Source of the DNA: a virus
IMG/VR virus record: IMGVR_UViG_3300031212_000021
Span: 1-23,690 of that record
Direction: 5' to 3' (one strand)
DNA length: 23,690 nucleotides
In this document: positions 8,359 through 21,739 of the stretch, one piece after another
Layout of the letters: each line of letters begins with the position of its first letter
Numbering within the stretch: the first letter of the stretch is position 1
Position numbers and translations under genes: made by a program
Notes under the pieces: model-generated
Database searches by the model: none
What the model saw: the letters and a program-made list of their open reading frames with translations, nothing else
What the model was told of the DNA's origin: nothing

Positions 8359-8742
8359 ATGGCCGCAACTGGCGGAAGCATTGAATCGATTACGCTGGAC
8401 GGCCGGAACTTCCCGGTCGCCGCAGACGCCGAAGCGCAGCGCAAGTTGGGCGGCTTCGAAAACGAAGTGCAAGCCAACGGCAACGGCACCGCCCGTCTTA
8501 TCAAGACCCGCGTGCCCCTGTCGCTGGACGGCATGACCCTGGAAGTGGACGACGCCCGCGGGGACCATGAGTTTTTGCAGAACTTGTCGAACCGCTTTGA
8601 CTACTTCCCGGTAGCGATTACCTACGCGTCCGGGGTAACGTTCCAGGGCACCGCGCAAATTACCGGTGAACTGCAAGCAAGCAGCCAGAACGCCACCGCG
8701 GCCGTGTCGCTGATGGGCCCGGGCATTCTGACCGCACAGTAA
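8359..8742 (+). CDS. Tail tube protein, Mu gpM-like
   Basis: Forms the inner tube through which DNA passes. 127 residues (Mu gpM about 118). An in-frame TTG at 8353 exists, but ATG 8359 has GGAGG (8346-8350) at the right distance. The sequence IESITLDGRNFPVAADAEAQRKLGGFENEVQANGNG is the typical Mu-type tube opening; the remainder is strongly beta (SLDGMTLEVDDARGD, FPVAITYASGVTFQGTAQITGELQ). It immediately follows the sheath gene, the universal order in contractile tails. The stop is followed by a structured intergenic region. Confidence 0.9.
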   Translation: MAATGGSIESITLDGRNFPVAADAEAQRKLGGFENEVQANGNGTARLIKTRVPLSLDGMTLEVDDARGDHEFLQNLSNRFDYFPVAITYASGVTFQGTAQITGELQASSQNATAAVSLMGPGILTAQ

Positions 8743-8758
8743 GAGCGACGGGGGCACT

Positions 8759-8812
8759 GTGCCGTTCGGGACGCCCTACCCTTCGCCTCGGCTTCGGCCG
8801 GGGGAACGGCAC
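8759..8812 (+). promoter_or_regulatory. Three-way-junction RNA structure between tube and chaperone genes
   Basis: The 91-base gap between tube and chaperone genes folds well. An outer perfect 9-bp stem pairs GTGCCGTTC (8759-8767) with GAACGGCAC (8804-8812). Directly inside its 3' arm is a second hairpin, CCTCGGC-TTCG-GCCGGGG (8786-8803), 7 bp with a stable cUUCGg loop. A short GGG-ACG-CCC element (8768-8776) can fill the third branch. No T-run follows, so it is not an intrinsic terminator. It ends 21 bases before the chaperone ATG and could set chaperone expression relative to sheath and tube, or mark an mRNA end. Structure seen by pairing; role inferred. Confidence 0.6.
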
Positions 8813-8833
8813 CCACTCAATAGGGCAAAAACC

Positions 8834-9256
8834 ATGGATACGAAAGAGAACCCGGTGGCACTTGAAGTGGCCGAGGCGGAGTTCGACCGCTTCGCCGATG
8901 AAATGGACCTGGACCTGGACACGTCCCTGATGGACGCCGAAGACCTGGCCCAGTTCGCAAAACAGAAACGTCGGATCCTTCGCGCGATGGAGCGCGGCGA
9001 CCTGACGGTGAATGAGGGCGGCGAAGCGGTATACACGCCCAGCAACGCCCGGTCGAAGCATAGCGACCCCATCACGTTTCACGAACGCACCGGCGCTTCG
9101 CTTATGGCGATGGACGGGAAGAAAAAGGGCCACGACGTTGCGAAAACCTACGCCGTTATGTCCGATATGTGCAGGGTCCACCCGAACGTTTTTGCGGGCC
9201 TGGCCGGCAACGATGCGAAGGTATGCGAGGCGCTTTTCGCGCTTTTAATGGACTAG
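8834..9256 (+). CDS. Tail assembly chaperone, first reading frame
   Basis: 140 residues. The frame is open upstream to 8759, but that part codes through the stem-loop; ATG 8834 has AGGG upstream and gives a sensible acidic N-terminus (MDTKENPVALEVAEAEFDRF). Tail assembly chaperones coat the tape measure before tube polymerisation; they are small, acidic, helical and placed just before the tape measure gene, as this one is. Visible segments: DLAQFAKQKRRILRAMERGDLTVNEGGEAVYTP (about 40-72), then FHERTGASLMAMDGKKKGHDVAKTYAVMSDMC (about 81-113). The final codons CTT TTC GCG CTT TTA ATG GAC TAG lie in a zone where a -1 shift would enter the next frame (separate entry). Confidence 0.7.
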   Translation: MDTKENPVALEVAEAEFDRFADEMDLDLDTSLMDAEDLAQFAKQKRRILRAMERGDLTVNEGGEAVYTPSNARSKHSDPITFHERTGASLMAMDGKKKGHDVAKTYAVMSDMCRVHPNVFAGLAGNDAKVCEALFALLMD

Positions 9257-14581: not shown

Positions 14582-15946
14582 ATGACGGTTCTTGCGCTCG
14601 TTGAAAGCGGCGATAGCCGCGTCGAGTGTGGGGCGGTCGAAGCGCAGTGCACCGGAAAGGTAACGTACATTGCCGTTTCCGCGGTTAAGCTGGTGATGTG
14701 CGGCGACACTGGCGCGGAAGCTGGCGAGCCTGGCGCGTTTTGCACCGGGCTAGTAATCGGCGGAACAATTGAAGAACGGCCGGACGCGGTCGAAGCGATC
14801 GGCGCTTCCGACGTAAAAACCGGATTTGGCGACGTAACCGAAGGCCCCGACGTGGCCGACGGTTCGGGCCGCATCGTGACCACCGCAGCTGGCGACGTAA
14901 CCGAAGCCCGGGACGCGCCTAGCGGTTCGGGCCGCATCGTGACCACCGCAGCTGGCGACGTGACCGAAGCCCGGGACGCGGCCGACGGTTCGGGCCGCAT
15001 CGTAACCGTCGCAGCTGGCGACGTGACCGAAGCCCGGGACGCGCCCAGCGGTTCGGGCCGCATCGTGACCACCGCAGCTGGCGACGTAACCGAAGGCCCC
15101 GACGTGGCCGACGGTTCGGGCCGCATCGTGACCACCGCAGCTGGCGACGTAACCGAAGCCCGGGACGCGCCTAGCGGTTCGGGCCGCATCGTAACCGTCG
15201 CAGCTGGCGACGTAACCGAAGGCCCCGACGCGCCCAGCGGTTCGGGCCGCATCGTGACCACCGCAGCTGGCGACGTAACCGAAGCCCGGGACGCGCCTAG
15301 CGGTTCGGGCCGCATCGTGACCACCGCAGCTGGCGACGTGACCGAAGCCCGGGACGCGCCCAGCGGTTCGGGCCGCATCGTAACCGTCGCAGCTGGCGAC
15401 GTGACCGAAGCCCGGGACGCGGCCGACGGTTCTGGACGGGCCTTAAACCAGTTAGAGTTGGGGCCGTTAATTGCTGTTTTTAACGCGATAGTTAACGACC
15501 AGTACCAAAACCCCGGGAGCAAAACCCCGTTGCAGCTATCTCAAGAATTTCAAGCCGCCTACATATCGTACGGAAAAACGGGCTCAGTTCTTGGCGTCGA
15601 TATTGTGGCCGGCGGCAATCCGCCGGCGTTAAACCCGGCGTTTTTTGCTGACAACACGGCGGCCGGTATCGACCGAATAGCGGACAACATTGCCGCCTAT
15701 TGGCAAACCGTAATTACGCCAGGAGCGCCCGCGCACGGCGGAACCGTCGTTTTGTCTGTTGAAGTAGTTCCGGACGTACCGGCCTTGCGCGCGGCTATTG
15801 TGGAGGCATCAACCGCGCCCGAAACGGCGCCCGGAGGCACGACCAACGTACTGACCGCTATCCAGCGAGAGCTTAAAACTTGGGTTTTCATAGTCACTGA
15901 AAGGGTCACCGGCTTGCCGGTCGCTTTTTTTGAAAGTATCATATAG
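14582..15946 (+). CDS. Repeat protein with 21-residue tandem repeats, putative baseplate/fibre-associated
   Basis: 454 residues in three parts. Residues 1-82 contain four Cys (16, 23, 40, 54) in ECGAVEAQC and MCGDTGAEAGEPGAFC. Residues 83-286 are nine complete and one partial copy of a 21-residue unit of the form GDVTEARDAPSGSGRIVTTAA (21 residues; core GDVTE..D...GSGRIVT). Alternating Val/Thr strands and Gly/Asp/Ser turns suggest an extended beta or solenoid stalk. Residues 287-454 form an unrelated, more AT-rich globular part with QLSQEFQAAYISYGKTG and TNVLTAIQRELKTWVF. Ribosome site: AAAAAGG. It sits between spike and gp46 genes. Function unknown; an elongated surface or baseplate appendage is the simplest reading. 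Family not identified. Confidence 0.75.
   Translation: MTVLALVESGDSRVECGAVEAQCTGKVTYIAVSAVKLVMCGDTGAEAGEPGAFCTGLVIGGTIEERPDAVEAIGASDVKTGFGDVTEGPDVADGSGRIVTTAAGDVTEARDAPSGSGRIVTTAAGDVTEARDAADGSGRIVTVAAGDVTEARDAPSGSGRIVTTAAGDVTEGPDVADGSGRIVTTAAGDVTEARDAPSGSGRIVTVAAGDVTEGPDAPSGSGRIVTTAAGDVTEARDAPSGSGRIVTTAAGDVTEARDAPSGSGRIVTVAAGDVTEARDAADGSGRALNQLELGPLIAVFNAIVNDQYQNPGSKTPLQLSQEFQAAYISYGKTGSVLGVDIVAGGNPPALNPAFFADNTAAGIDRIADNIAAYWQTVITPGAPAHGGTVVLSVEVVPDVPALRAAIVEASTAPETAPGGTTNVLTAIQRELKTWVFIVTERVTGLPVAFFESII
14828..15439 (+). repeat. 63-bp in-frame tandem repeat, 9.7 copies
   Basis: Units begin at 14828, 14891, 14954, 15017, 15080, 15143, 15206, 15269, 15332 and 15395 (last copy incomplete). Spacing is exactly 63 bp, so every unit keeps the frame. 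Units differ at only a few fixed places: GTA or GTG for the first Val; GAAGGCCCCGAC or GAAGCCCGGGAC; ADG or PSG (the Pro as CCT or CCC); and GTGACCACC or GTAACCGTC. Variants recur in different combinations rather than drifting singly, pointing to duplication and recombination between units. Copy number may change by slippage and may be miscounted in short-read assemblies. Confidence 0.97.
15908..15931 (+). terminator. Terminator-like hairpin plus T7 run inside the 3' end of the repeat gene
   Basis: ACCGG-CTTG-CCGGT (15908-15921 region) forms a short perfect GC stem followed three bases later by seven T (15925-15931). This looks like an intrinsic terminator, but lies 15 bases before the stop codon of the repeat protein, so elongating ribosomes would normally mask it. 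It could make downstream baseplate expression depend on translation of the repeat gene, or mark the old boundary of an inserted gene. The stem is only 5 to 6 bp, so the effect may be small. Confidence 0.45.
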
Positions 15947-17610: not shown

Positions 17611-18422
17611 CTTTTTTTCGCGCGTTCCAGCACCTGTTGCCGAAGGCGCGCGCGTGGCTGCTAACGCCAGAGAAACCCCTCCGCAAACTGTTTGAAGGGC
17701 TGTCCGGCGTTGGGGCCGACGCCAAAGAGTTTATCGATAACGTTTGGCTGGACCTATTCCCGCAATCAACGCGCGAACTGGACAAGTGGGAGCAGCAATT
17801 CGGCCTGCCGTCTTCTGACTTAAACACCCAGGGCCGGCGCGAGCGTTTAGACGCGGAGTGGAAAGCCTTGGGCGGACAAGACCCGCGGTACTTCCAAGAC
17901 GCTTTGCGCGGTGCCGGGTTTGACGTTTACGTGCACGACTGGTGGGTGCCCGGGTCCGAAGCCGCCGTGGGTGCAAGCGCCGCCGCTACGCCCCGCAATC
18001 CGCTGCAGTACCTGGAACGCGGTTCGCCCGGTTTTGAAAGCCTGGTCGAATGCGGGGAACCGCTGGCGCAATGCGGTGAAGCGTTCGCGGAAGCCGGCAA
18101 CATCCTGGAGCCCATCGGGCTTGCGCTTGTTAACAAAGTGGTCGAAACAATCGCCGACACATTGCCGCTGTGCGGCGAAGCGTTTGTAGAATGCGGGGCC
18201 GCCGGCGCTATTGCAGGCGATTACGACCAGTTTATAAACCAGACTAAAGAGTACACTGTCCCGGCGTCGCCGACGTTTTGGCCGTTCTTTTTCTACATTG
18301 GCGGAGAGACCTTCCCGGAGCAAGCGACCGTGCCCGAAGCGAGGCGCGACGAATTTGAAAATCTATGCCTAAAGATCGGCCCAACGCAATTGTGGCTCGG
18401 GCTTTTGGTCCGGTTCACGTAA
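17607..18422 (+). CDS. Baseplate/tail protein, Mu gp48-like (DUF2313)
   Basis: Last baseplate gene before the fibre; in Mu and P2 (gpI) it joins the wedge to the tail fibre. 271 residues. N-terminus FFRAFQHLLPKARAWLL and FEGLSGVGADAKEFIDNVWLDLFPQSTRELDKWE in pieces are typical DUF2313, as is the C-terminus YTVPASPTFWPFFFYIGGE and ARRDEFENLCLKIGPTQLWLGLLV. Between them (about 145-200) is an insertion-like segment with four Cys in two CX6C pairs (149/156 and 189/196; VECGEPLAQCGEAF, LCGEAFVECG). This segment also resembles the Cys-containing start of the repeat protein. The start is in an ATGA overlap with no clear ribosome site, so coupled translation is likely. Confidence 0.9.
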   Translation: MTFFRAFQHLLPKARAWLLTPEKPLRKLFEGLSGVGADAKEFIDNVWLDLFPQSTRELDKWEQQFGLPSSDLNTQGRRERLDAEWKALGGQDPRYFQDALRGAGFDVYVHDWWVPGSEAAVGASAAATPRNPLQYLERGSPGFESLVECGEPLAQCGEAFAEAGNILEPIGLALVNKVVETIADTLPLCGEAFVECGAAGAIAGDYDQFINQTKEYTVPASPTFWPFFFYIGGETFPEQATVPEARRDEFENLCLKIGPTQLWLGLLVRFT

Positions 18423-18433
18423 GGAGATTACAA

Positions 18434-19390
18434 ATGGCCATTGTTCCAGAAACGCAATACGCGGGCAAAATCACGCCCGCAACTCCGGCCTACCCGCTAG
18501 GGTCGGCGCGAAACATCACCGTGCCAGGCGACGGCACCGGCACGCCCTGGGAGCAGGCGCTGGTGAATGACCTGTTCGGGTTCCAGCAAACACTGCTGGC
18601 ACGCGCAGCGATTACCGCGTCGGGCTTTCCTGACAGCGTGACGGCGCCGCAGTATTACCAAGCGCTGCAGACTTTGGGCGTTATGGATTACGACGCGGCC
18701 CGCACGTACCCGGTCGGGGCGTTTGTAAAAACCGCGGCGGCGGTCTACCAAGGTTTGACGGCGGGCAACGTCGGAAACAACCCGGACAGCGACGGCGGCA
18801 CTAATTGGGGTCCGTTGGCCACACTTGCCGCACTGGCCACGAAAGCGGACAAAGCGAGCGAAACGGCCATAACGGGGACCGCAACGTTTACAAACGCCAG
18901 CAACAACATAGCACTACCCGGCATCGGCTCCATCGGCCTTGAGATCGGCGACGTTGTGCAGGTAACGGGAACGGCGAGCAACAATAAGCTGTTCACGGTT
19001 GAGGTACTAACGGACAGTGGGAACGTTATTGTTAATCAGGCTCACGCGGGCGGCACGACTACAAAATCCTTAGTTAATGAAACTATAATCACAACCGTAA
19101 CGCTTTTGACAAAATGGTTTAACGCCGCCGCAGGCTTGGGGCAAGGATACGCAAACGTCACTGCGCAAAGGTCTTTGAATGTGACTTATACAAACAGCAC
19201 ACAAAGGTCTATTTCTTTATGGACCGGGCAGTCTGGTGAAGGCGGGGGTGGTCCGACTACAAAAGTGGATGGTCTTGGGCCTAGTGTAGACGGGGTAGCA
19301 AATGCACTTTTTACAAATTTTGCAACCGCGCCGCCGGGATCAGAATTTGAGTATTCTGGAAATACAGGTGCTATCTTTGAGCAACGCTAA
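18434..19390 (+). CDS. Tail fibre protein / receptor-binding protein
   Basis: Adhesin that recognises the host surface. Start ATG 18434 has AAGGAG (18421-18426) at seven bases; the frame is open upstream but that part overlaps the gp48-like gene. 318 residues. Residues 1-85 (RNITVPGDGTGTPWEQALVNDLFGFQQTLL in pieces, then ITASGFPDSVTAPQYYQALQTL) form the N-terminal attachment region common to Mu-like tail fibres. Residues about 90-130 have a YPVGAFVKTAAAVYQGLTAGN repeat-like linker. The C-terminal part, from about codon 190, is Asn/Thr/Ser-rich, Gly-rich near 270, and coded by clearly more AT-rich DNA (19000-19390). That is the usual mark of a swapped receptor-binding tip. Short for a fibre, so it may be only one part of the adhesin. 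Confidence 0.75.
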   Translation: MAIVPETQYAGKITPATPAYPLGSARNITVPGDGTGTPWEQALVNDLFGFQQTLLARAAITASGFPDSVTAPQYYQALQTLGVMDYDAARTYPVGAFVKTAAAVYQGLTAGNVGNNPDSDGGTNWGPLATLAALATKADKASETAITGTATFTNASNNIALPGIGSIGLEIGDVVQVTGTASNNKLFTVEVLTDSGNVIVNQAHAGGTTTKSLVNETIITTVTLLTKWFNAAAGLGQGYANVTAQRSLNVTYTNSTQRSISLWTGQSGEGGGGPTTKVDGLGPSVDGVANALFTNFATAPPGSEFEYSGNTGAIFEQR

Positions 19391-19402: not shown

Positions 19403-19864
19403 ATGACTAAATACTATACAAACGAAAAAGGAAAATGGTTTGCTGACCCTATACTAGCGAACCAAACCGGCCTGATTGAGCGAACCGAGGAGGATTTCAA
19501 CTTCTTTTTGACAGAACAAAACACGCCTACAACCGACCAGCTTTTGCAGCAGCTAACGCAGGCGCGCAAAGAGCAAGAGCGCCAAGGCGTAACAATCAAC
19601 GGCATCCGCTACGCAGGCGACCCCGGCAACCGGCAGGCATTGCAAGAGGCTATTGAGTTTATGAATGACGCGGGCTTAACAGAGTTCCCGCGCTTTAAAG
19701 ATTCGGACGGCGCGTTCCACGCCGAGCACCCACTGGCCGACGTGATGGACGCTTATCGGGCCATAGGCGCGCGCCGGGTTCAGCTAATAACGACCGAGGG
19801 CGACTACGCGGAACAGGTGGTCGCCGGCACCTTAACCGATTTAACCGACCTGGTGTGGTCATGA
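19403..19864 (+). CDS. Tail fibre assembly-like protein (DUF4376)
   Basis: 153 residues directly after the fibre gene, with GGGGA upstream of ATG. Residues 1-45 (YYTNEKGKWFADPILANQTGLIERTEEDFNFF, in pieces) resemble the N-terminal segment found in proteins annotated as fibre assembly chaperones. Residues about 55-153 match the DUF4376 pattern: KEQERQGVTINGIRYAGDPGNRQALQEAI, then FKDSDGAFHAEHPLADVMDAYRAIGARR. The first 80 bases continue the AT-rich composition of the fibre 3' end, suggesting that fibre tip and chaperone moved together. The stop overlaps the next start (ATGA). A structural role cannot be excluded. Confidence 0.7.
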   Translation: MTKYYTNEKGKWFADPILANQTGLIERTEEDFNFFLTEQNTPTTDQLLQQLTQARKEQERQGVTINGIRYAGDPGNRQALQEAIEFMNDAGLTEFPRFKDSDGAFHAEHPLADVMDAYRAIGARRVQLITTEGDYAEQVVAGTLTDLTDLVWS

Positions 19865-20337
19865 ACAAAACTAAAATAGCGGTGGGCGTTTTTGCCCTGG
19901 TACTTATTGCGGCGGGCTATGCAATGAACGCCCGCGCGGATTCGGTACATATGGGGCTTGGCAAGTCTGTTGTAAACTCGCAGCTAGTAGTGGGCGAAGT
20001 TGGCTATGAGCGCAACGGGTGGGAAGTGCAAGCCGCGTTGATGGAAAGCGGCGACACGAAGAACGGCCAGCAGGACCAGTTATCAATCTATTCTGTTTCG
20101 TACATAACGGAACCGGGGTGGGGGTACAAGGGCGTAGAACCTTATATACGTCTAGGCGTTAGCCACAACACCGGCAGCGAGTTAGTCGGAACAAGTAACT
20201 TCCGCCTGGGTGCGGGCTTAAACTTTACCCGGGTGTTTCGACTTGAATACGTACACCACAGTTCCGCAGGCATCCACCAAACCAACACGGGCGTCGATTA
20301 CGTAATGCTTAATTACATAACGCCGGCGCCCTGGTAG
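19861..20337 (+). CDS. Outer-membrane beta-barrel protein, PagL-like (lipid A 3-O-deacylase family), putative
   Basis: 158 residues. An N-terminal signal peptide is clear: Lys-rich start, hydrophobic IAVGVFALVLIAAGYAM, and an Ala-x-Ala site (ARA|DS, cut after residue 26). The remaining 132 residues alternate polar and hydrophobic positions like an eight-stranded barrel, and end in Trp, as outer-membrane proteins often end in an aromatic residue. LEYVHHSSAGIHQTNTG matches the active-site region of PagL, which removes an acyl chain from lipid A. Pseudomonas PagL uses His126, Ser128 and Glu140; here His132, Ser134 and Asp146 have the same spacing (2 and 12), with Asp for Glu and Ser135 where PagL has Asn129. 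Placed between fibre chaperone and endolysin, and starting in an ATGA overlap. A non-catalytic barrel is the alternative. Confidence 0.65.
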   Translation: MNKTKIAVGVFALVLIAAGYAMNARADSVHMGLGKSVVNSQLVVGEVGYERNGWEVQAALMESGDTKNGQQDQLSIYSVSYITEPGWGYKGVEPYIRLGVSHNTGSELVGTSNFRLGAGLNFTRVFRLEYVHHSSAGIHQTNTGVDYVMLNYITPAPW

Positions 20338-20355: not shown

Positions 20356-20790
20356 ATGAAAATTAAAAAGGTAATAATTCACGCAGCCGACACGCCCGCC
20401 GACATGGACATTGGCACGGCGGAGATACGCCGCTGGCACGTCGAGGGCAACGGCTGGTCCGACATCGGGTACCACTACGTTATCCGGCGCGACGGCGTAA
20501 CCGAAACGGGCCGGGACCTGGACGGCGACGGCGACATAGAAGAGGAAGTCGGCGCCCACGTTTACGGGCACAACCGGGGCACCCTGGGCGTTTGTATGGT
20601 CGGGGGCATGCCGGGTTGCAACTTCACGTCCGCCCAGTGGCCCGCTTTGGCTTTTCTAATCCGGGACATACTGGAACGGCACGGCCTAGGCGTCGGTGAC
20701 GTGTACGGCCACAGAGACTTCGACAACGGCAAGACGTGCCCGACGTTCGACGCGCGGGCCTGGGCTTCGACTTTGGAGGTGCGCCGGTGA
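20356..20790 (+). CDS. Endolysin, N-acetylmuramoyl-L-alanine amidase (amidase_2, T7 lysozyme type)
   Basis: Cuts the bond between muramic acid and L-alanine in peptidoglycan for lysis. 144 residues, ribosome site GGGGAAG. The sequence follows T7 lysozyme closely: IIHAADTP (zinc ligand His9), EIRRWHVEGNGWSDIGYHYVI (Tyr39), RRDGVTETGRDL, GVCMVGG, and GHRDFDNGKTCPTFD with His119, Lys126 and Cys128, corresponding to T7 His122, Lys128 and Cys130. All catalytic and zinc residues are present. No signal peptide, so it needs the holin encoded next to it. An Asp/Glu-rich insertion (DLDGDGDIEEEVG, about 54-66) is larger than in T7. The stop overlaps the next start in GTGA. In T7 the homologue also inhibits RNA polymerase; nothing here shows that. 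Confidence 0.93.
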   Translation: MKIKKVIIHAADTPADMDIGTAEIRRWHVEGNGWSDIGYHYVIRRDGVTETGRDLDGDGDIEEEVGAHVYGHNRGTLGVCMVGGMPGCNFTSAQWPALAFLIRDILERHGLGVGDVYGHRDFDNGKTCPTFDARAWASTLEVRR

Positions 20791-21356
20791 AACTTTGGGA
20801 CGTTATCAAGACGGTGGGCAGCGGCATTATCAGGGAGGTTGTGCCGGGCGGCGGTATTCTGGTCGATGCGGTGAACGAGTTTTTGCCGGACGATAAGAAG
20901 CTGCCGGGCAACGCCACCGGCGGGGACGTTAACAACGCCCTGCAGTCGCTACCGCCGGCGGACCAGGCGCGGCTTCTGGACAAAGAGTTCGACGTGGACC
21001 TGGCCCAGATCAGACAAAGCAACGAGACGGTGCGCGCTATGCTGGAAGCCGACGCAAGAAACCCGCAGAGCACCCGGCCGCGTATCGCCCTGGGCGCTTT
21101 CCGGGTTGTCGCCTTCGCGGTCGTCGTCGCCGTTTCGGCCTGGGGGTACGGCGTCTTCAAGTCCGGCGACCCGCTGGCCGCCGCGTCGGCGTCCTGGCCG
21201 TTCATTCTTTCCGTTATTGGCCCTTTTGTTATACTGTTACACGCGTACTTCGGGGTTCTTCGAAGCGAGCAAAAGAACCGCCTCGAGGCGGCATCCGGGA
21301 GAACCGGAGCGACCGGCCTAGTCGGGGCAATTTCAGGGCTTATTAAACGGGGGTAG
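20787..21356 (+). CDS. Holin, three-TM type (GTA_holin_3TM-like)
   Basis: Forms the inner-membrane lesion that lets the endolysin reach the cell wall. The frame is open from 20736, but GTG 20787 is preferred: it overlaps the endolysin stop (GTGA) and has GGAGG (20775-20779) seven bases upstream. 189 residues. The N-terminal half is soluble (WDVIKTVGSGIIREVVPGGGILVDAVNEFLP in pieces, then charged helix to about 110). Two clear membrane segments follow, FRVVAFAVVVAVSAWGYGVF (about 111-130) and ASWPFILSVIGPFVILLHAYFGV (about 141-163), then a basic tail RSEQKNRLEAASG. The third segment of the family may be the weaker hydrophobic start. 'Holin of 3TMs' proteins, first seen in gene transfer agents, share this layout. 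Confidence 0.78.
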   Translation: MKLWDVIKTVGSGIIREVVPGGGILVDAVNEFLPDDKKLPGNATGGDVNNALQSLPPADQARLLDKEFDVDLAQIRQSNETVRAMLEADARNPQSTRPRIALGAFRVVAFAVVVAVSAWGYGVFKSGDPLAAASASWPFILSVIGPFVILLHAYFGVLRSEQKNRLEAASGRTGATGLVGAISGLIKRG

Positions 21357-21358
21357 GG

Positions 21359-21739
21359 GTGGGCGTAGTAGACGACCAGACGGACGCGCCCGCGAGCGAC
21401 GATATGCCCAGATTCAGCGACGTTGAGCTTACACGGCTTCGGGAAGAGTTCGAAAGCCACAGGGACCGGCAGGAGGAACGGTGGGGGCAATTGGCCCTAA
21501 TGGTCGAGCAGAACACCGAAGCGACCCGGGCGGTCGCCGTAAGCGTCGAATCTATCGCCCGAAGCACCGACGGCGTTGTGCAGCTCTACCGGGACTTCCA
21601 GGGCGCCGCCCGCGTCGGCATTGGCGTCCGTAGGTGTATAGCCTGGCTAATTGCCCTGGGCACCGGCGGGGCCGCTATCGCCGCCGCCATCATGTATTTT
21701 CTGGACAAGCTCGGAATACCCGTAGACCCCCCGGGCTAG
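21359..21739 (+). CDS. Single-TM coiled-coil membrane protein, possible second holin or lysis accessory
   Basis: 126 residues from a GTG start with a G-rich site just upstream (GGGGG, 21349-21353). Residues about 18-50 form a charged helix with coiled-coil character (VELTRLREEFESHRDRQEERW), 50-90 another amphipathic helix, and about 91-115 a single hydrophobic segment (CIAWLIALGTGGAAIAAAIMYFL in pieces). This topology, long helix then one C-terminal TM, resembles XhlA-type lysis partners and other holin accessories. No lipobox or signal peptide is seen, so it is not an obvious spanin. The stop codon lies in a CTAG shared with the convergent gene on the other strand. Role inferred from the lysis neighbourhood. 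Confidence 0.55.
   Translation: MGVVDDQTDAPASDDMPRFSDVELTRLREEFESHRDRQEERWGQLALMVEQNTEATRAVAVSVESIARSTDGVVQLYRDFQGAARVGIGVRRCIAWLIALGTGGAAIAAAIMYFLDKLGIPVDPPG
21736..21739. other. Convergent stop codons sharing CTAG
   Basis: The palindrome CTAG supplies TAG to the plus-strand lysis-accessory gene (21737-21739) and, on the other strand, TAG to the 93-residue gene (21736-21738). Only a weak potential stem (CGGG ... CCCG, about 21731-21750) surrounds it, with no T-run on either side, so no clear bidirectional terminator is seen at the point where the two transcription units meet. Confidence 0.85.

Follow-up and report, generated by a model that had tools for sequence, protein, structure and literature searches.

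The window analyzed here (the whole stretch of DNA, 23,690 nt in length) is a linear 23.7-kb virus fragment in which an open reading frame on the (+) strand (19861..20337; ATG start, 158 codons plus stop) encodes a candidate outer-membrane lipid A deacylase of the PagL family. The genes ahead of this ORF specify baseplate and tail-fiber components, including a tail-fiber gene (18365..19390, (+) strand; phrog_26525 tail fiber, E = 9e-10) and a gene for a tail-fiber-associated DUF4376 protein (19403..19864, (+) strand; PF14301, 36.1 bits; phrog_10508 tail fiber protein), whose TGA stop codon shares bases with the ATG of the PagL ORF (ATGA). On the same strand, a gene for an N-acetylmuramoyl-L-alanine amidase, i.e., the endolysin (20356..20790; Amidase_2, E = 6.3e-17; phrog_822 lysis/amidase, E = 1.7e-47), begins 18 bases past the PagL stop codon and is followed by one for a holin-like membrane protein (20784..21356; phrog_1544, E = 9.8e-5). 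The counterpart of the latter in L014 matches phrog_1544 as well as the holin family phrog_3427, with GTA_holin_3TM falling below the cut-off. The late operon ends with a gene for a 126-aa protein (21359..21739, (+) strand) that combines a soluble N-terminal portion with a single membrane segment at its C-terminus and matches no family above the cut-off.

Given the ATGA overlap with a late gene and the lack of any promoter-like site on the (+) strand in the PagL region of the window, we take the PagL gene to be read together with the late operon. Since it overlaps the stop codon of the tail-fiber-associated gene and precedes the amidase and the holin-like gene, its expression is expected to be late, and this arrangement of the sequence indicates that it is most likely transcribed as part of a tailed-phage late operon. 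Further upstream, between baseplate-region genes, the window also hosts a 454-aa late ORF (14582-15946, (+) strand) made of many near-identical repeats (GSGRIVTxAAGDVTEARDAPS/GPDVAD), and the ends of the L020 contig likewise break within a repeat-rich stretch.

Members of the PagL family are enzymes that remove a fatty acid from lipid A, the anchor of lipopolysaccharide (LPS). The 158-aa protein starts with a short n-region (MNKTK) and continues with a hydrophobic stretch, an AxA cleavage site (ARA followed by DS), and a beta-rich body that closes with a C-terminal Trp158. A Sec signal peptide is predicted for residues 1-26 (19861..19938, (+) strand), with cleavage expected after ARA (24-26) and before D27. 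PagL (PF09411) is the sole Pfam match of the protein (28.1 bits, E = 2.5e-6), and the profile search that the initial annotation had called for thus yields a score above the Pfam gathering score of 23 bits; all six members of our first viral alignment also match Pfam PagL (best E = 7.9e-8). Among solved structures, phmmer returned a single sequence match, 2erv, which is PagL of Pseudomonas aeruginosa, and the Pfam search gave no match to LpxR (PF09982). The Pfam score, the dN/dS values, and the wide conservation described below exclude a chance or shadow ORF at this position.

Two AlphaFold models, built from 10 and 22 sequences (pLDDT of 81 and 84, respectively), both predict a helix from residue 3 to residues 22-24 and strands from residue 28 onward in a beta-barrel pattern, in agreement with the signal peptide and barrel-like body that had first been noticed in the sequence. 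When the models were compared with the PDB using Foldseek, each had 2erv as its top match (E = 2.1e-5 and 1.1e-5, probability 1.00; TM 0.54-0.57 at 19-21% identity), ahead of the OmpA, OprF, Ail, and PagP barrels, so the suggested structural comparison with the Pseudomonas enzyme came out in favor of PagL. The LpxR structure 3fid was a weak match (rank 47, E = 0.1). In the models, H132 and S134 lie on one strand (126-134) and D146 at the start of the one that follows (145-155), which makes a spatial cluster of these three residues of the PagL kind plausible.

The putative active-site segment (20254..20298, (+) strand) reads H132 H S134 S135 A G I H Q T N142 T G V D146. The phmmer alignment to 2erv_A pairs H132 with H126, S134 with S128, S135 with N129, N142 with N136, G144 with G138, and D146 with E140, and the spacing of His132, Ser134, and Asp146 proposed from the sequence is therefore exactly that of the PagL triad (His126/Ser128/Glu140). 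All six of these phage residues are invariant across 22 aligned viral sequences, down to 34% identity. The phage protein thus shares with P. aeruginosa PagL (2erv, PF09411) a signal peptide, a small barrel, and the His-x-Ser...acid motif, including the catalytic pair of the HxS signature (H132/S134), and differs from it in having (i) Asp in place of Glu140, a residue frequent in cellular PagLs, and (ii) Ser in place of Asn129, which is confined to the viral clade.

To place these two substitutions, we tallied the residues at the corresponding positions across 50 PagL entries of cellular origin, all from the host phylum and with two loci entering twice. The acid position of the triad held E in 16, N in 15, D in 15, T in 2, and Q in 2 of them, i.e., the viral Asp146 supplies an acidic third triad member although an acid is itself not universal among cellular PagLs. 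The residue after the catalytic Ser was Asn in 49 entries and His in 1, while every viral member has Ser135 instead of the Asn of HxSN, a strong tendency of the PagL family rather than an established definition. On these counts, the change from Glu to Asp is ordinary, and that from Asn to Ser is a mark of the viral clade. The initial annotation had raised altered or lost activity for both. For Glu to Asp, this is not supported: a decayed enzyme on account of this change is rejected given the frequency of Asp in cellular PagLs, and no member of the viral clade departs from Asp. For Asn to Ser, the difference is genuine, but its strict retention under purifying selection speaks against decay; Ser135 is retained through both TCN and AGY codons. 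With the profile, the solved-structure match, the fold match, and the invariant catalytic positions all pointing the same way, the proposed PagL-like identity is supported, and the product is very probably a PagL-type hydrolase whose catalysis is predicted from its sequence.

Searches of viral contigs uncovered relatives at 35-100% identity on many independent contigs. Most relatives belong to uncultured viruses of the environment, large phages among them; scanning bacterial genomes yielded three more, of which two lie in Denitromonas. Between closely related members of the viral clade, pairwise dN/dS ranged from 0.06 to 0.17, and these values together with the invariant motif residues indicate that the protein is maintained. 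In a tree of 70 sequences, built by a fast method from 152 columns and containing some long branches on the cellular side, all 23 viral-type sequences fell on one side of a branch with an SH-aLRT of 100, and the stem of the viral clade measured 2.56 changes per column. The viral sequences therefore form one well-supported PagL clade apart from the cellular PagLs, as judged by sequence comparison; this single clade and its long stem leave a recent capture of a host pagL gene unsupported. When five viral-clade sequences and one cellular PagL were used as tblastn queries against INPHARED (50,697 GenBank phage records), no credible match to a cultured phage was obtained. The protein matched phrog_15758 weakly (E = 0.002), and some annotated virus or prophage protein is therefore a distant relative. 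Two signal-peptide positions, Thr4 and Val8, do not vary in any of the 22 viral PagLs, which is unusual, as such a region normally drifts freely.

Across the relatives, the commonest upstream neighbor of the PagL gene was a DUF4376 or other tail-fiber-type gene. About half of the lineages have a peptidoglycan hydrolase gene on the downstream side, its product belonging to one of five Pfam families (Amidase_2, M15_4, M23, SLT, and Phage_lysozyme). In several large relatives, baseplate or tail genes adjoin PagL with no endolysin, and in a P2-like prophage of Denitromonas (L022) PagL sits between a tail-fiber-type gene and the tail sheath gene. At another locus (L023, Denitromonas halophila, ~8390-9233), PagL is seemingly the last prophage gene and is followed by the host MiaB-like and PhoH-like genes. 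These two Denitromonas prophages are the closest source of the gene that is open to cultivation.

Directly 3′ of the PagL gene, or overlapping its end, nine loci carry a gene for a membrane protein of 71-81 aa that has one span and a strongly conserved SNRINHxRLVWFA...FPWL core (L015:8471-8695, L007:4049-4276, L018:8471-8695, L027:6095-6319, L029:1147-1377, L030:8477-8722, L035:8493-8735, L036:8491-8727, and L037:8393-8608). This protein has no Pfam match and a marginal PHROG match only, and neither the window nor the L020 contig encodes it. It is possible that it acts as a functional partner of viral PagL.

The initial annotation had also remarked that no spanin lies nearby and had entertained a role in lysis. 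In the window, a linear fragment, the late strand indeed has no ORF of the lipoprotein type, and there is no match to two spanin PHROGs. The PagL-like protein itself does not resemble a spanin, which would have a lipobox or an N-terminal anchor plus a periplasmic coiled coil; it has an AxA signal, no lipobox Cys, and a beta-rich body. The last gene of the lysis cassette, encoding the 126-aa protein (21359-21739), shows a topology unlike that of a classic i-spanin, and a 134-aa protein with a membrane segment is also encoded 3′ of PagL in L024; C-terminally anchored proteins have been named as conceivable spanins (PMC6139136).

Rz/Rz1-type pairs were detected in four PagL phages (L021, L026, L030, and L040), within ~2 kb of PagL in L030 and L040 and with the L021 i-spanin assigned by eye; the pairs lie at L030:8972-9584, L040:9262-9892, L102 (G550), and L103 and L107 (G546). 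These four phages contradict a spanin-substitute role as a general rule, and a general replacement of spanins by PagL is thereby excluded. The two spanin PHROGs and a lipobox scan detected no spanin in the records L020 and L037. The former (44 kb) is nearly complete, because its ends overlap over 5.2 kb at 94%, and the latter (43.6 kb) is probably complete, because it has an exact 99-base end repeat. Of the four known o-spanins, the relaxed lipobox scan picks up all but that of L021, which makes the absence of a spanin from the window and these two records likely but uncertain.

Late expression, the predicted outer-membrane location, and the conserved lipase motif fit best with a change to the outer leaflet at lysis or just ahead of it. 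We therefore favor a protein that helps virion release by loosening the outer membrane, in line with the finding that Salmonella forms more outer-membrane vesicles when it expresses PagL and that deacylated lipid A builds up in them (PMC4958258). According to this model, the protein would be exported via Sec and folded into the outer membrane by BAM, where it would face the LPS leaflet. Ser134, activated by His132 and Asp146, would cleave a 3-O-linked acyl chain of lipid A late in infection, and the underacylated LPS would pack poorly, bending and weakening the outer membrane and making virion release easier. Where a phage has no spanin, PagL may do this by itself; beside Rz/Rz1, it may assist. 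Deacylation alone is expected to be mild, because PagL expression in Salmonella induced no envelope stress response (PMC4958258). According to the same paper, E. coli DH5alpha has no homolog of pagL. Counting against a lysis role are the large relatives with tail or baseplate neighbors and the four relatives that also carry spanins. Taken as a whole, the chain leading to a late outer-membrane lipid A 3-O-deacylase that helps virion release, with its predicted activity, appears to us evenly balanced between right and wrong. The narrower proposal that phages of the window lineage, L020, and L037 breach the outer membrane enzymatically, through deacylation of lipid A by an HxSS-type PagL, is doubtful.

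The main rival to the release-helper reading is a late lipid A deacylase that acts at the cell surface, where the change in LPS would stop superinfection by siblings or keep virions from sticking to debris and vesicles. The tail-fiber or DUF4376 gene upstream is the most constant neighbor, even where no endolysin adjoins, and the placement of PagL in L022 also suits such a role; however, tail-fiber genes frequently adjoin lysis genes anyway, and late expression comes too late for classic superinfection exclusion. PagL takes off one acyl chain and leaves in place the sugars, to which most LPS phages bind; this weakens the alternative further, and we consider an effect on superinfection or re-adsorption possible but rather unlikely. 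A change of the LPS that serves as receptor, another of the roles first proposed, is possible too. Improbable to a greater degree is a hydrolase of the outer membrane that has the PagL fold but acts on another substrate (such as a phospholipid or another acyl position), its specificity shifted by the change from Asn to Ser. Ser135 in every viral member, set against Asn in nearly all cellular PagLs, and the long viral stem fit this idea, but the remaining motif positions all fit PagL, and the best fold match is PagL and not PagP, LpxR, or an OmpA-type barrel. The phage-specific residue at position 135 could also mark an inactive barrel kept as an outer-membrane plug or receptor mask; invariance of the His/Ser/Asp/Asn/Gly motif in such divergent sequences is unexpected for a non-catalytic barrel and renders this very improbable. 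A lysogenic-conversion gene that alters the lipid A of lysogens and dampens innate immune detection, as had also been suggested, would accord with the prophage-borne relatives in Denitromonas genomes and with LpxR, a lipid A deacylase of another family whose gene is reported to lie close to antiterminator Q in prophages of E. coli (PMC13192938), but is scarcely credible for a gene that is translationally coupled to a late tail-associated gene, has no promoter-like site of its own, and occurs mostly in uncultured environmental viruses, large phages included, with no link to animals seen among the relatives.

We compared the phage PagL with known systems. The LpxR lipid A 3′-O-deacylase of E. 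coli prophages (PF09982) is likewise a phage-borne outer-membrane lipid A deacylase located near late genes (PMC13192938), and the general idea of such a phage-borne enzyme is therefore not new. LpxR belongs to another family, however: it is a 12-stranded barrel of 319 aa with calcium-binding residues in its active site (PMC6863877), and the 158-residue phage protein does not correspond to a 12-stranded, ~300-residue barrel with a calcium site. Two-component Rz/Rz1 spanins resemble the phage PagL in supplying a late outer-membrane product that is often encoded beside endolysin and holin, but they pair an inner-membrane protein with an outer-membrane lipoprotein devoid of an enzymatic motif, whereas the phage PagL is a barrel with a lipase motif. 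Mycobacteriophage LysB, a mycolyl-arabinogalactan esterase, compares in its manner of working only: it is an esterase from a phage lysis cassette that attacks the outermost layer of lipid (PMC5707550). This was shown experimentally for LysB, while the role of the phage PagL is a proposal and both protein and substrate are unrelated.

In the open literature that we searched, we found neither a phage PagL nor a virus-specific clade of PagLs encoded in late operons. What sets the sequences described here apart from cellular PagLs is their location in a phage late operon instead of a chromosome and their grouping in a clade of their own; the new element is a purely viral, conserved PagL lineage with Ser after the catalytic Ser, in late operons. 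With this lineage, the PagL family, which is known from the genomes of cells, gains members among uncultured phages. About 13% of surveyed phages have no recognizable spanin (PMC6139136), and for outer-membrane breach in such phages the viral late-operon PagL lineage is a concrete enzymatic candidate. If borne out, enzymatic breach by PagL would represent a third route besides spanins and disruptins, and a Gram-negative counterpart of LysB.
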